DNA of 64,000 nucleotides from Kosakonia radicincitans DSM 16656 (GTDB taxonomy: Bacteria > Pseudomonadota > Gammaproteobacteria > Enterobacterales > Enterobacteriaceae). The notes beneath the pieces were generated by a model. It did no database searches, was not told the DNA's origin, and worked only from the letters and a program-made list of their open reading frames with translations. Shown one piece after another: positions 4,500 to 62,832 of the stretch. The first letter of the stretch is position 1, and every line of letters starts with the position of its first letter. The position numbers were made by a program, and so were the translations under genes. The stretch is from contig NZ_CP018016.1 of NCBI RefSeq assembly GCF_000280495.2, forward strand, positions 3,844,001-3,908,000, given 5' to 3'.

Positions 4500-4880
4500 T
4501 CAGCAATGAGACAGTTTTTGCTAACACCAGTCTTGCAGCGATGGGGTTAAGTTCCCCGCTCGAAATCGGCGAACCGAAGCGCAGATGACAAGGTCTGGAC
4601 GCCATGGATGGCGGCCAGAGGCGAGTCGAGCAGGACAAAATTGCCGGGGGCAATTTTGAACAGCGCTTACGCTGGCCCCGAAGGGGCGAGTCCCATGGAT
4701 GGGACGAGTAATCACGAGTCGAGCCGACCGCAGGCAAATGTGCGGGAGGTGAGCACAGTGCGAAGCACCGATTTCCCGCGGGGCCGCGGGGGATTGAAAA
4801 GGGGAAGCGCGGTGGCTTTCCCTTTTCCCGTTCACGTGATACCGAGTTGATGTGACCACCGTTCATCTGGTGAACGGAAC
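4500..4880. other. Hairpin-rich non-coding stretch of unknown identity
   Basis: About 380 bp hold at least seven short, near-perfect inverted repeats in succession: 4595-4618 (arms around a central GCCATGGATGGC), 4637-4657 (AAAATTGCC/GGCAATTTT), 4675-4687 (GCCCC/GGGGC), 4690-4705 (GTCCCATGGATGGGAC), 4775-4790 (CCCGCGG/CCGCGGG), 4796-4827 (GAAAAGGGG / CCCTTTTC arms) and 4859-4877 (CCGTTCA/TGAACGG). CGAGTCGAGC occurs twice (4622, 4717) and CATGGATGG twice. Open frames on both strands are short, overlap each other and have arginine/proline/serine-rich compositions with no recognisable family, so I do not call a gene. It could be a mosaic of degenerate repeats or a structured RNA. No T-run marks a terminator. 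Confidence 0.5.
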
Positions 4881-57199: not shown

Positions 57200-57216
57200 C
57201 TTAAGGTTGTCTTAAA
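57200..57216 (+). promoter_or_regulatory. PmrA box upstream of eptA
   Basis: CTTAAGGTTGTCTTAAA contains two CTTAA half-sites with the five-base spacing used by PmrA dimers. It lies 52-68 bp before the eptA ATG, in the gap after yvcK. It implies autoinduction of the eptA-pmrAB operon by PmrA. Confidence 0.85.
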
Positions 57217-57267
57217 AAACGCCTGTCAGCATAGCGCTACTTTCCTTTGCAGGACCCGAGAATACGT

Positions 57268-58905
57268 ATGCTTCACCTTCGTCGGCCGGCGTTAAGCCGT
57301 CTTCAGTTTATTATTCTGTTCGCACTCTATATTGCGCTGGCGCTGAATATCGTTTTCTATCACCAGGCTTTTACGCTATTACCGGTAAACTCGCTGCGTA
57401 ACTGGCTGGTGTTTCTGTCTATGCCAGTGGTGGCGTTCAGCGTGATCAATATCGTGCTGTCACTGGCGTCATTCTTCTTTCTTGAACGCCCCGTTATCAC
57501 AGTATTTGTGCTGGTCAGCGCGGCAGCGCAATATTTTATTTCGACCTTTGGCATCGTCATTGACCGCTCGATGATCACCAATATTCTCGACACCACGCCA
57601 GCGGAAAGTTTCGCCCTGATGTCGACAAAAATGGTGCTGACGATTTTACTGACTGCCATCATGCCGGTACTCATTGCCTGGTTTATTAAAATTAAACCGG
57701 CACAATCCGCGCTGCGCAGCATCGCGTATCGTGCGGTCAGTATCGTTATTTCTGCGCTGCTTATCGTGCTGGTGGCGCTGCTGTTTTATAAAGATTACGC
57801 CTCGCTATTCCGCAATAATAAAGAGTTGGTGAAATCTCTCAGCCCGTCCAACTCCATTGTGGCGTCTCTGTCCTGGTATTCCCATAATCGCATGGATAAT
57901 TTGCCGCTGGTGCGTATTGGCGAAGATGCTCAGCAACGCCCGGAAATGAAAAATGGTCCGCGTAAGAACCTGACCATACTGGTCGTGGGTGAAACGTCCC
58001 GCGCGGCGAATTTCTCGCTTGGTGGTTATGAACGCGAAACTAACCCGCTGTTAAAACAGGATAATGTTATTTACTTTCCGAACGCGACATCCTGCGGCAC
58101 CGCCACCGCTGTCTCGGTCCCGTGCATGTTTTCGGGGATGACGCGGGAGCATTACGACGATCAGCTTGCCCACCATCAGGAAGGGCTGCTGGATATTATC
58201 CAACGCGCCGGTATTCAGGTTTTATGGAATGAAAATGACGGCGGTTGTAAAGGCGCCTGCGATCGCGTGCCTCACCAGGATGTGACGCAGTTAAACCTGC
58301 CGGAATATTGCATTAAGGGCGAATGCCAGGATGAGATCTTATTCCACGATCTCGCCAGCTATATCGACAAATTACAGGGCGACGGCATTATCGTTTTGCA
58401 TACCATTGGTAGCCACGGGCCGACTTATTACAACCGCTATCCGGCGCAGTTCCGCAAATTTACGCCAACCTGTGATACCAACGAAATTCAGGGCTGCTCA
58501 CAGCAGCAACTGGTAAATACCTACGACAATACCATTTTGTATATCGACTATATTGTTGATAAAGCGATTAAATTATTGCAATCCAAACAGGACAGATTTA
58601 CCACCAGCCTGGTTTATCTCTCCGATCATGGTGAATCATTGGGTGAAAATGGCGTCTATTTGCACGGTCTGCCTTATTCCATCGCACCAGAAACACAAAA
58701 ACATATTCCGATGCTGATCTGGTTGTCCGATGACTACCAGAAACGCTACAGCGTGAATAACCAGTGCCTGCAAAAAAATGCGCGGGAGAAGGCGATTTCG
58801 CAGGACAACCTCTTCCCGACAATGTTGGGTATACTGGGGGTCAGCACGAAAGAGTACCGTGCTGAAGACGATATTTTAACGTCGTGCCGGGAGCAGGCGA
58901 AATGA
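57268..58905 (+). CDS. eptA: Lipid A phosphoethanolamine transferase EptA (PmrC)
   Basis: A 545-residue enzyme that adds phosphoethanolamine to lipid A phosphates and gives polymyxin resistance. Five hydrophobic helices to about residue 165 are followed by the periplasmic sulfatase-like domain. The nucleophile is Thr243 in [11 protein letters not shown], with the [26 protein letters not shown] and [13 protein letters not shown] metal-binding motifs. I use the ATG giving [10 protein letters not shown]; a TTG at 57247 is in frame but less likely. Its stop overlaps pmrA by four bases. A PmrA box lies upstream. Confidence 0.95.
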
Positions 58906-59573
58906 AGATTCTGGTGGTTGAAGACGATGCCCTGCTGTTGCAGGGGTTGATTCTGGCGATGCAAAGCGAAGGATATGCCTGCGATGGCGTATCCACCGCG
59001 CACGAAGCGGTGTTGTGCCTGGCGAATGGCCACTACAGCCTGATCGTGCTCGATCTTGGTCTGCCCGATGAAGACGGATTACATCTGCTCACCCGTTTGC
59101 GGCGCGAAAAATATACCCAGCCAGTGCTGATTCTCACCGCCCGCGATACGCTGGAAGATCGCGTCGCCGGGCTGGATACCGGCGCAGACGATTACCTGGT
59201 CAAACCCTTCGCGCTGGATGAACTGAATGCCCGTATCCGCGCGCTGCTGCGCCGTCATCATAATCAGGGCGAAAACGAAATCACCCACGGTAATCTGACG
59301 CTGAATGTCACCCGCCGCCAGGCGTGGCTGGACAACCAGTTGCTGGATCTGACGCCGAAAGAGTACGCCCTGCTTTCGCGCCTGATGCTGAAAGCCGACA
59401 GCCCGGTGCACCGGGAAATTCTCTATAACGATATCTACAACTGGGACAACGAGCCCTCGACCAATACGCTGGAAGTCCATATTCATAATCTGCGCGACAA
59501 AATCGGCAAGTCGCGCATTCGTACCGTCCGCGGGTTTGGCTACATGCTGGTTCAGCCGCAACACCGGGAGTAA
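58902..59573 (+). CDS. pmrA: Response regulator PmrA (BasR)
   Basis: A 223-residue OmpR-family regulator with phospho-acceptor Asp51 in [12 protein letters not shown], Lys in DDYLVKPF and a winged-helix C-terminus ending VRGFGYML. Activated by PmrB in response to Fe3+ or low pH, and indirectly by PhoPQ. It binds PmrA boxes; two such boxes lie in this window. The ATG giving MKILVVEDD overlaps the eptA stop. Confidence 0.96.
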
Positions 59574-59576
59574 TCA

Positions 59577-60704
59577 ATGGCGTTTTTCAATTTCAGCCAC
59601 TGGAGCATGCGCCGCCGTCTGCTGCTGACCATCGGCGGGATTCTGGTGTTTTGCCAGTTGGTCAGTGTGTTCTGGCTGTGGCATGAAAGTGAAGAGCAAA
59701 TCCAGTTACTGGTGCAGGCCGCGCTCCACAACCATAGCAACCGTAAACATATTGAACATGAAGTCCGCGAGGCGGTCGCCAGCCTGCTGGTGCCAAGCCT
59801 GCTGATTATCGGGCTGGCGTTGCTGCTTTGTATGCAGGCGGTCAAAGCCATTACCCGCCCGCTGCTGGAGTTGCAGGAAGAGCTTAATAAACGTACGCCG
59901 AACAACCTGCAACCGATTACGTTAAACAACAGCGTCAGCGAAGTGGAAGCTGTTACGACATCGATTAACGACCTCGTCTCACGGCTGACGCTCACGCTGG
60001 ATCGTGAGCGATTATTTACAGCGGATGTGGCGCATGAGCTACGCACGCCGCTGGCCGGGCTACGGCTGCACCTGGAGCTGATGGCAAAAACCAACGGCAT
60101 CAACGTCGAGCCATTGGTACAGCGGCTCGAACAGATGACGGAAAACATCGCGCAGTTGCTGCTGCTTGCCCGCGTCGGACAGTCTTTTTCGGCAGGCAGT
60201 TATCAGCAGGTACAGCTGATGGCCGACGTAGTAGCGCCCATTCGCAGCGAGCTGGAAGCCATGCTCGCCGGGCGTAAGCAAACGCTGGCGGTGCCGGAAA
60301 TTGACGCCGATATTGCCGTATCCGGCGATGCCACGCTGTTAAGGTTGCTGGTGAGAAATCTGGTGGAGAACGCGTACCGCTACAGCCCGGAAGGTTCGGT
60401 CATTACGATACGCATCGAACCGGCTGCTACGCCAGTGCTGGCCGTGGAGGATGAAGGTCCGGGCATTGATGAGAGCCGCAGCGGAGAACTGAGCAAAGCG
60501 TTTGTCCGCATGGACAGCCGTTACGGCGGAACCGGGCTGGGGTTAAGCATCGTGTCGCGCATCGCACAGCTTCATGACGCACAGTTCTTTTTGCACAACC
60601 GCCTTACGCAATCCGGTGTACGGGCGTGGATTAAATTTCTTCCGGCCGCCCGCCATTTACCATCAGTAGCTCAGCACCCACAGATGAGCGAAACCGATCA
60701 CTAA
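59577..60704 (+). CDS. pmrB: Sensor histidine kinase PmrB (BasS)
   Basis: A 375-residue kinase with two membrane helices (about 15-35 and 71-92) bracketing a short periplasmic loop. This loop carries an ExxE iron-binding motif, EVRE (62-65), plus acidic residues near 37-40. The HAMP linker follows, then phospho-acceptor His153 in DVAHELRTP and the kinase domain with N-box VRNLVENAYRYS, DEGPGI and GGTGLGLSI. Three bases separate it from pmrA; GGAGTAATC serves as ribosome binding site. Confidence 0.95.
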   Translation: MAFFNFSHWSMRRRLLLTIGGILVFCQLVSVFWLWHESEEQIQLLVQAALHNHSNRKHIEHEVREAVASLLVPSLLIIGLALLLCMQAVKAITRPLLELQEELNKRTPNNLQPITLNNSVSEVEAVTTSINDLVSRLTLTLDRERLFTADVAHELRTPLAGLRLHLELMAKTNGINVEPLVQRLEQMTENIAQLLLLARVGQSFSAGSYQQVQLMADVVAPIRSELEAMLAGRKQTLAVPEIDADIAVSGDATLLRLLVRNLVENAYRYSPEGSVITIRIEPAATPVLAVEDEGPGIDESRSGELSKAFVRMDSRYGGTGLGLSIVSRIAQLHDAQFFLHNRLTQSGVRAWIKFLPAARHLPSVAQHPQMSETDH

Positions 60705-60755
60705 TGCCAGTGCGAAGGCGACGGCTAAAAATTCACGAACGTTAAACTGCTGCAT
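60663..60755 (-). CDS. Putative 30-residue PmrA-regulated membrane peptide (PmrR-like)
   Basis: MQQFNVREFLAVAFALALVI followed by GFAHLWVLSY: a short hydrophilic N-terminus, one hydrophobic helix of about 19 residues and an aromatic end. GGAGGG lies seven bases before the ATG, a far stronger site than chance. A PmrA box lies 44 bp upstream of the ATG. Salmonella PmrR, a 30-residue PmrA-induced membrane peptide that inhibits LpxT, has the same size and layout, with its W and final Y at similar places. Equivalence is inferred; primary identity is low. It converges on pmrB and overlaps nothing else. Confidence 0.6.
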   Translation of the reverse strand: MQQFNVREFLAVAFALALVIGFAHLWVLSY

Positions 60756-60798
60756 GACACTGCCCTCCAGAATAGTGGGGGCAGTGTGTCAGGAGTAG

Positions 60799-60815
60799 GT
60801 TAAGCAAACATTAAG
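60799..60815 (-). promoter_or_regulatory. PmrA box upstream of the 30-residue peptide gene
   Basis: On the minus strand CTTAATGTTTGCTTAAC: two CTTAA half-sites with five-base spacing, as at eptA (57200-57216). It overlaps the uvrB stop codon (60811-60813) and points leftward, so it lies between uvrB and the peptide gene. Confidence 0.7.
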
Positions 60816-62832
60816 ATGCGACAATAAACAGTTCACGTAGCTGGTGCAATTGATCGCGTACCTGCGCCGCCTCTTCGAATTCCAGATTCTGCGCATGCTG
60901 CATCATCAGCCCTTCCAGCTCGTGGATTTTCTGTTGCAGCGCTTTCGGCGTCAGCGCCAGTTCTGCCGCTTCCACCTGCGCCGGGGTGCGGGTTTTGCCA
61001 CGCCCTTTCGCACGCGTTTTCGCCAGCCCTTCGCCCATCGCCAGAATATCCACCACCTTCTTGTTCAGGCCTTGCGGCGTTATGCCGTGCTCAACGTTAT
61101 AAGCGTGCTGTTTTTCGCGGCGGCGTTCGGTTTCACCGATTGCTTTCGCCATCGATGGCGTGATCTTATCGCCGTACAGAATCGCTTTCCCGTTGATGTT
61201 ACGCGCTGCGCGGCCAATGGTCTGAATCAGTGAACGCTCCGAACGCAGGAAGCCCTCTTTGTCCGCATCCAGAATCGCCACCAGCGACACTTCCGGCATA
61301 TCCAGCCCTTCGCGCAGCAGGTTGATGCCCACCAGCACATCAAACTCGCCGAGACGCAGGTCGCGGATAATTTCCATACGTTCAACCGTATCAATATCAG
61401 AGTGCAGATAACGCACCCGTTCACCGTGCTCTTCCAGATATTCGGTGAGATCTTCCGCCATACGCTTGGTCAACGTCGTCACCAGCACGCGCTCATTAAT
61501 GGCCGCGCGGATGCGGATTTCCGACAGCAGATCGTCAACCTGCGTAGCGACCGGGCGCACTTCGATGATGGGATCCAGCAAACCTGTCGGACGTACCACC
61601 TGGTCAATCACTTCATCGCCGGATTTCTCCAGCTCGTAATTGCCCGGCGTCGCCGAAACATAGATAGACTGCGGCGCCAGCGCTTCAAACTCTTCAAATT
61701 TCAGCGGACGGTTGTCCAGCGCCGACGGCAGACGGAAACCGTACTCCACCAGTGTCTCTTTACGCGCCCGGTCGCCACGGAACATCCCGCCGATTTGCGG
61801 GATGGTGACGTGGGATTCGTCGATCACTAACAGGCCATCGGCTGGCAGGTAATCAAACAGCGTTGGCGGCGGCTCGCCAGGGCCGCGCCCGGAGAGATAG
61901 CGCGAGTAGTTTTCGATGCCGGAGCAGTAGCCCAGCTCGTTCATCATCTCCAGATCGAACTGCGTGCGCTGGCTGAGACGCTGCTCTTCCAGCAGCTTAT
62001 TGTTCGCCAGCAGCGTTTTACGCCGTTCTGCCAGCTCATCTTTGATCTCTTCCATCGCCTGCACGATACGCTCGCGCGGCGTCACGTAGTGCGTTTTCGG
62101 GTAAATGGTAAAGCGCTGAACCGTCGATTCCACATGCCCGGTGAGCGGGTCAAACAGCGACAGACGCTCTACTTCTTCGTCGAACAACTCGACGCGCAGC
62201 GCCAGGTCATCCGATTCCGCCGGGAAGATATCAATCACTTCCCCACGCACGCGAAACGTCCCGCGCTGGAAGGCCTGATCGTTGCGGGTGTACTGAAGTT
62301 CTGCCAGACGACGCAGAATCGAACGCTGGTCGATAATCATGCCGTTGGTCAGATGGAGCATCATCTTCAGGTAGAGATCCGGATCGCCCAGGCCATAGAT
62401 GGCCGAAACGGACGCCACGACCACCACATCACGGCGTTCCAGCAGCGCCTTCGTTGCTGACAGGCGCATCTGCTCGATATGCTCGTTCACCGAGGCATCT
62501 TTTTCGATAAAGGTGTCCGAGCTGGGCACATAGGCTTCCGGCTGGTAGTAGTCATAGTAGGAGACGAAATACTCCACCGCGTTTTCCGGGAAGAACTCCT
62601 TCATTTCGCCATACAACTGCGCCGCCAGCGTTTTGTTCGGCGCCAGCACCATCGTAGGGCGTTGCAGATCGGCAATGACATTGGCGATGGTAAAGGTCTT
62701 ACCCGAGCCGGTAACCCCCAGCAGCGTCTGGTGCGCGAGGCCGTCTTCCAGACCTTCCTTAAGCCGACGAATCGCCTCAGGCTGGTCGCCGGAGGGACGA
62801 AAAGCAGAATTCAGTTTGAACGGTTTACTCAT
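60811..62832 (-). CDS. uvrB: Excinuclease ABC subunit UvrB
   Basis: A 673-residue damage-recognition subunit with Walker A GVTGSGKT (about 38-45), the beta-hairpin region [23 protein letters not shown], the UvrA-interaction domain and a C-terminal UVR coiled coil ([14 protein letters not shown]) for UvrC. Length equals E. coli UvrB. It is SOS-induced: a LexA box lies 76 bp upstream. In E. coli it sits beside bioD and yvcK; here pmrCAB intervenes on one side and a nitrogen-type ABC gene on the other. Confidence 0.97.

Follow-up and report, generated by a model that had tools for sequence, protein, structure and literature searches.

What is the small gene that runs head-on into the 3' end of pmrB in Kosakonia radicincitans DSM 16656, and how might a gene of its size, pressed against a co-directional neighbor, stay silent when its own regulator is idle? 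We address both questions in a 64,000-nt stretch of this genome (contig NZ_CP018016.1, positions 3,844,001 to 3,908,000), hereafter the window, whose own numbering is used below. The answer to the first question is an ordinary one, pmrR in its usual place: the gene is very probably the Kosakonia pmrR, a positional ortholog of the E. coli and Salmonella genes, working as a PmrA-induced LpxT inhibitor. The new part is an inverted repeat in the pmrR leader, which bears, more tentatively, on the second.

The gene occupies positions 60663 to 60755 of the minus strand, starts with ATG and has 30 codons, its product, MQQFNVREFLAVAFALALVIGFAHLWVLSY, presenting one hydrophobic stretch. This frame and its GGAGGG Shine-Dalgarno sequence (60763 to 60768, minus strand, 7 nt before the ATG) had been proposed in a preliminary description of the locus, and both are borne out by the sequence and the list of open reading frames (ORFs), the coding assignment resting also on the conservation described below. 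PmrA boxes follow the consensus YTTAAK-N5-YTTAAK, against which we scored candidate sites. The box upstream of the gene on the same strand, CTTAATGTTTGCTTAAC (60799 to 60815), agrees with it at 11 of 12 positions and lies 43 nt before the ATG, not 44 as first described. Immediately upstream is a co-directional gene that we take to be uvrB (60811 to 62832, minus strand; an ORF whose protein is 100% the same at the same place in K. sacchari, locus L030); its stop codon (60811 to 60813) sits within the PmrA box, and only 55 nt separate that stop from the pmrR start. At the other end, the 3'-terminal 42 bp of the gene (60663 to 60704) overlap the 3' end of the convergent sensor kinase gene pmrB (basS; 59577 to 60704, plus strand; NF008025, 551.5 bits, cut-off 314).

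This arrangement is that of the known gene. The preliminary description had likened the product to Salmonella PmrR, which holds for the one-helix peptide and its PmrA box, but it had also placed pmrR near lpxT and not beside pmrAB, which the E. coli coordinates contradict. In MG1655, pmrR (b4703, 4332116 to 4332205) lies on the strand opposite to basS, runs towards it and shares 25 bp with its 3' end, while lpxT lies at 2268854 to 2269567, between yeiR and mepS and about 2 Mb from pmrR. The pmrR region is present in 5358 of 5426 E. coli genomes, and passages of PMC8129183 and PMC8004244 also describe the overlap with pmrB, those of the former also describing a PmrA box for pmrR. Because E. coli pmrR itself adjoins pmrB, neither of the two origins first offered for the window gene, a relocated PmrR or an independent micro-protein, is needed, and relocation is ruled out. 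A separate pmrR elsewhere in the same genome, also raised at that stage, was not found by PmrR profile search, the next match (E 0.64) lying inside a 1072-aa frame.

To follow the gene across relatives, we kept the best 80 of 254 confirmed pmrB loci from named genomes. A hydrophobic ORF of 29-39 aa convergent with the end of pmrB was found in 73 of the 80, those of Pantoea, Erwinia and Tatumella included, the other 7 lacking one by the filter used; a scan of the 73 ORF-bearing loci showed that every one has, at 40-46 nt, a PmrA box matching 11 or more of the 12 positions. The conservation of frame and box on which the preliminary description had made its proposal hinge is thus present, and is accompanied by a low ratio of non-synonymous to synonymous change (pN/pS): 0.23 for 8 Kosakonia-type sequences, and between 0.21 and 0.23 for each of four other groups. 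In four of the Kosakonia-type loci (L032-L035, the last titled Enterobacter sp.), pmrB does not reach into pmrR, and there pS is 0.50 and pN 0.10, so that the constraint on pmrR is not borrowed from pmrB. The closest trio (L030, L031 and L065) offers 2 synonymous and 4 non-synonymous differences over 3 pairs in the 17 codons outside the pmrB overlap, too few to weigh. A chance ORF is ruled out by the cross-locus conservation together with pN/pS. In an order-wide search, PmrB was matched at E ≤ 1e-70 in 51 of 394 genomes; among 29 further loci from this search, 7 had both ORF and box, and in 22 the 500 nt following pmrB contained no box reaching 11/12.

Several results weigh against the identification. 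BLASTP of the window peptide against E. coli PmrR returned nothing at E up to 100, the NCBIfam model NF033224 (cut-off 30 bits) gave 0 families at E up to 10, and LpxT, the expected target, is too widespread for its co-occurrence with PmrR to be more than weak evidence, being found in 116 of 198 sampled genomes, many of them without a PmrR match. A nucleotide search of E. coli genomes using the window region found no match, and the window peptide is only 28% identical to E. coli PmrR (alignment A1). Orthology therefore rests on position, on promoter and box spacing and on intermediates, with purifying selection in addition. The 64 distinct peptides form a graded series, with intermediates between the window peptide and E. 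coli PmrR in Klebsiella, Trabulsiella, Kluyvera and Citrobacter; the 59 sequences that were aligned all have F22 and W26, the membrane helix being judged from sequence alone. A profile of 14 Escherichia/Salmonella/Citrobacter-type peptides gave the window peptide 7.5 bits, a score reached by 4 of 2000 segment-shuffled decoys. NF033224, which does not detect the window peptide, matches 20 of the 59 positional sequences at E up to 0.01 and so under-covers the positional family. The missing BLASTP and model matches are what one would expect of an independent PmrA-induced micro-protein that arose beside pmrB in Kosakonia, yet the shared position, box spacing, leader stem and invariant F and W, together with the graded intermediates, make such an origin highly improbable.

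The window gene as pmrR shares with its E. coli and Salmonella counterparts (NF033224; b4703) convergence with the pmrB 3' end (overlapping in E. coli), a PmrA box 40-46 nt upstream, a length of 29-30 aa, one hydrophobic stretch, the pattern of F, W and a C-terminal aromatic residue, and an LpxT in the genome. LpxT has a single ortholog in the genome of the window, with 75% identity over query residues 4-232. Across 198 family genomes, the PmrR profile matched 50 at E ≤ 0.01, of which 31 strongly (E ≤ 1.8e-7); the weak tail, which includes matches inside long frames, was not trusted. All 31 strong genomes have LpxT (in two pieces in G028), but given how widespread LpxT is this is only consistent with PmrR identity, and co-occurrence was rejected as a strong test because it is uninformative.

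The passages of PMC8129183 on pmrR describe its activation by PmrA and the inhibition of LpxT by PmrR, which leaves lipid A position 1 to EptA; binding of PmrR to LpxT is reported in part of PMC4651636, and in iron(III)-selected populations of E. coli B pmrR goes up together with eptA and the arn genes, according to a section of PMC13405929. By analogy with E. coli and Salmonella, we infer the same control and target in Kosakonia. Phosphorylated PmrA would bind the box at 60799 to 60815, a short mRNA would begin near 60776, and the one-helix PmrR would enter the inner membrane and inhibit LpxT, so that lipid A position 1 would stay free for EptA.

Taken alone, the box is weak evidence, since the pattern with at most one mismatch occurs 5 times in the window against 1.91 expected by chance, two of the five being both strands of one site upstream of eptA (57200 to 57216; 12/12 on the minus strand, 11/12 on the plus); it becomes strong through its presence in all 73 ORF-bearing loci. 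About 10 nt after the box, an alignment of pmrR leaders (A2) presents the motif NANACT, with A, A, C and T in 48, 50, 49 and 51 of 51 rows. We take this motif, CACACT in the window (60783 to 60788, minus strand, 10 nt after the box), as the predicted -10 hexamer of pmrR, with a predicted transcription start about 7 nt later, near 60776.

Between the PmrA box and the ATG lies an inverted repeat whose left arm, ACACTGCCC (60779 to 60787, minus strand), overlaps the predicted -10 and whose right arm, GGGCAGTGT (60757 to 60765, minus strand), covers half of the Shine-Dalgarno sequence. The letters differ among lineages, the arms being ACTCTCCTCC/GGAGGAGAGT in E. coli and CTATCCTCA/TGAGGATAG in Klebsiella, and where well formed the stem has 8-14 bp. 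A stem score of at least 7 is reached by 56 of 69 distinct pmrR leaders and 4.8% of shuffles; the corresponding figures are 1 of 67 for distinct eptA leaders (the stretch of 44 nt that follows the PmrA box in the same loci) and 5.9% for 392 generic leaders. An intrinsic terminator for uvrB or pmrB was considered and rejected, as the stem is followed by no T run on either strand. In one Pantoea locus (L105, about 4686-4736), the two arms of a 14-bp inverted repeat lie on either side of the PmrA box and not of the ribosome site, as judged by folding.

The stem is above chance also by covariation, on three of five measures over the 51 selected rows of A2. This alignment was obtained from the 73 loci by dropping 11 near-duplicates and 11 with a weak or no stem. 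Its ten-pair helix has 83.2% standard pairs (74.3% in shuffled alignments), 52 cells changed on both sides (22.7 shuffled) and a covariation of 0.281 (0.133 shuffled), each unmatched in 500 shuffles, and slid versions of the helix give 0.018-0.108. One core pair is C-G in 21 rows, A-U in 13, G-C in 8, G-U in 6 and unpaired in 3. Unaided, RNAalifold recovered no more than 6 pairs, at -4.26 kcal/mol, and both sides had changed in 3. A single parsimony reconstruction on the PmrB tree yielded 15 both-sides changes between Watson-Crick pairs and 15 restorations, along with 15 changes to G-U and 12 to A-C.

What could such a repeat do? With the predicted -10 overlapping the left arm, that arm would be part of the promoter and absent from PmrA-started RNA, while any uvrB RNA would hold both arms. 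In RNA that runs on from the co-directional gene upstream, which is uvrB in the window and proP in E. coli, the repeat would hide the ribosome site; PmrA-started RNA would begin beyond the left arm, leave the ribosome site free and allow pmrR to be translated. That the hairpin silences uvrB or proP read-through mRNA while the shorter, PmrA-started mRNA is translated is a possibility we rate a little below an even chance. Equally tentative is the corollary that one widely conserved element may serve two uses, the -10 region doubling as part of the anti-ribosome-site arm, such that only RNA started by PmrA would yield PmrR, and read-through from uvrB (SOS) or proP (osmotic) would not. Read-through into pmrR does occur in E. 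coli, as follows from the statement in part of PMC10687069 that upstream-gene transcription terminates inside the pmrR coding sequence. In folding predictions, the unpaired fraction of the ribosome site (median of 73 loci) is 0.21 in read-through RNA, 0.45 in own-start RNA and 0.35 when the left arm is shuffled.

A stem that works for pmrR is expected to disappear wherever the upstream gene is not directed into pmrR. Automatic calls placed a co-directional gene within 300 bp in 71 loci and none in 10 others; a stem of at least 6.5 is present in 65 of the former and 2 of the latter. Counted among the ten others are L070, whose broken uvrB call conceals a co-directional gene, and the Pluralibacter rearrangement L083; that leaves five Pantoea/Erwinia loci and three further genomes, which brings the test close to a single clade contrast, and L107 is probably mis-called in the opposite direction from L070. 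The Tatumella loci L102 and L109 have a co-directional upstream gene and keep the stem.

A number of results count against this silencing role. The own-start gain in ribosome-site freedom exceeds 0.3 in only 17 of 73 loci, and the window-like L030 goes from 0.22 in read-through to 0.43 in own-start RNA. The stem of at least 6.5 is missing in 6 of the 71 co-directional loci (L056, L058, L107, L163, L165 and L166), and shuffles of the left part reach 6.5 in 16% of cases. Alignment A2 leaves out the 11 of 73 loci with a weak or no stem; within it, neither the pairs with both-sides change (5 against 4.2 shuffled, 149 of 500) nor the further pair types (14 against 13.5, 244 of 500) are in excess, and the tree reconstruction holds 31 changes to other non-pairs. 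The start near 60776 is predicted from conserved letters, not from mapped 5' ends. Lastly, over all ten pairs the departures to G-U and to A-C, which bear on which strand folds, stand at 15 to 12.

The strand question matters since the repeat might instead act where the convergent eptA-pmrAB mRNA ends, as an exonuclease block or a help to termination, and not on pmrR. Plus-strand RNA of the window region folds about equally well (-29.6 kcal/mol, z -4.2; pmrR strand -24.6 kcal/mol, z -4.8), and outer-pair A-C departures on the pmrR strand are G-U on the pmrB strand, although we think that it is the -10 that fixes the outer A letters. The five core pairs, with 11 departures to G-U and 1 to A-C, favor the pmrR strand, and no T run follows the stem on the pmrB strand. 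Also, the Pantoea/Erwinia loci L103-L108 keep the convergent pmrB, but their stem of at least 6.5 is absent.

A published deletion series bears on the same choice. According to the sections of PMC8004244 on downstream length, BL21 pmrB with 86 bp of downstream sequence conferred no colistin resistance, 103 bp gave a minimum inhibitory concentration (MIC) of 4 and 126 bp an MIC of 16, and downstream length altered the pmrB mRNA level, which suits action at the 3' end. In K-12 coordinates, the left arm lies at +87 to +96 from the pmrB stop, the series itself coming from BL21. However, a further rise in resistance comes at 126 bp, and in K-12 this is the end of the PmrA box (+110 to +126), so that pmrR transcription may explain part of the series. 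With K-12 coordinates applied to BL21, the stem would return earlier in the series than the pmrR promoter; PmrR is discussed by the authors, and the leader element is not mentioned in the sections on the series. An effect on the 3' end of the eptA-pmrAB message seems to us fairly unlikely; either strand, that of pmrR or that of pmrB, may be the one that folds, and the hairpin role in pmrR silencing is one that we infer.

Comparable hairpins are known. In T4 lysozyme gene e, IS10 and IS50, the ribosome site is occluded in read-through RNA. Stems of 8-14 bp count as short substrates for RNase III. The aceEF and pflBA promoter hairpins, in the relevant passages of PMC5371410, likewise hold promoter elements inside the stem, with both arms only in RNA from upstream promoters, and the IS200 stem, in the part of PMC3196728 that treats it, also occludes the ribosome site. 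The pmrR hairpin differs from these in being attached to the gene of a small regulatory peptide within a two-component regulon, in being known here from sequence alone, and in having a sequence that changes between genera with most of the pairing preserved. By analogy with aceEF and pflBA, RNase III might cut the read-through hairpin and thereby free rather than silence pmrR, but well-formed pmrR stems fall within that short 8-14 bp range and pmrR is absent from those passages of PMC5371410, which makes such cleavage improbable. A literature search, with most subscription journals outside its scope, found no description of such a pmrR leader element among the papers listed, and the words 'hairpin' and 'stem' are absent from the main text of PMC8129183.

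The remainder of the block lies on the plus strand. The response regulator gene pmrA (basR; 58884 to 59573, Pfam Response_reg and Trans_reg_C, named from its position) probably starts in reality at 58902, and the phosphoethanolamine transferase gene eptA (pmrC; 57247 to 58905, Pfam EptA_B_N and Sulfatase) has an uncertain start codon. The E. coli block is next to proP, whereas the eptA-pmrAB-pmrR block of the window lies between uvrB and a CofD-family gene, presumably yvcK/ybhK. Among named pmrB genes the nearest, with 98% identity, comes from K. sacchari SP1, whose PmrR peptide equals that of the window. In the clade of the window, L030, L031 and L065, the C-terminal tail of PmrB is the antisense reading of pmrR; in L032-L035, pmrB ends before reaching pmrR.

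Some loci depart from this layout. In L166 (about 2429-2587) and L164 (about 2428-2589), the PmrR profile picks out one-helix ORFs that follow crcB at 3 and 18 nt, at a distance from pmrB, that of L166 between crcB and pagP; their PmrA boxes score 12/12 and 11/12, and they are candidates for genuine relocation of PmrR. L163 (about 1850-2006) has a further PmrR-like ORF, with a box of 12/12 and likewise away from pmrB, between a LysR gene and a co-directional 230-aa gene that we assume to be RraA-like. In L165 (624-2405), pmrB is reduced to a C-terminal 159-aa piece near a phage integrase gene, and pmrR and its 12/12 box look intact. Pluralibacter gergoviae (L083/L015/L027) has an intact pmrR, preceded by an ORF that by eye resembles a fimbrial subunit; 6.5 kb away, the end of pmrB and pmrR recur as a degenerate second copy.

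For the family, the finding corrects the idea of PmrR being encoded near lpxT, a pmrR-like gene standing beside pmrB in most of the loci examined, and indicates that the annotated PmrR family is too narrow, as the NCBI model leaves most positional sequences unmatched. If the hairpin acts as proposed, it would explain how so small a gene, lying close up to uvrB or proP, is kept silent in the absence of its regulator, would offer another reading of the published pmrB 3'-region deletions, and would mean that promoter identity decides whether a regulatory micro-protein is translated.
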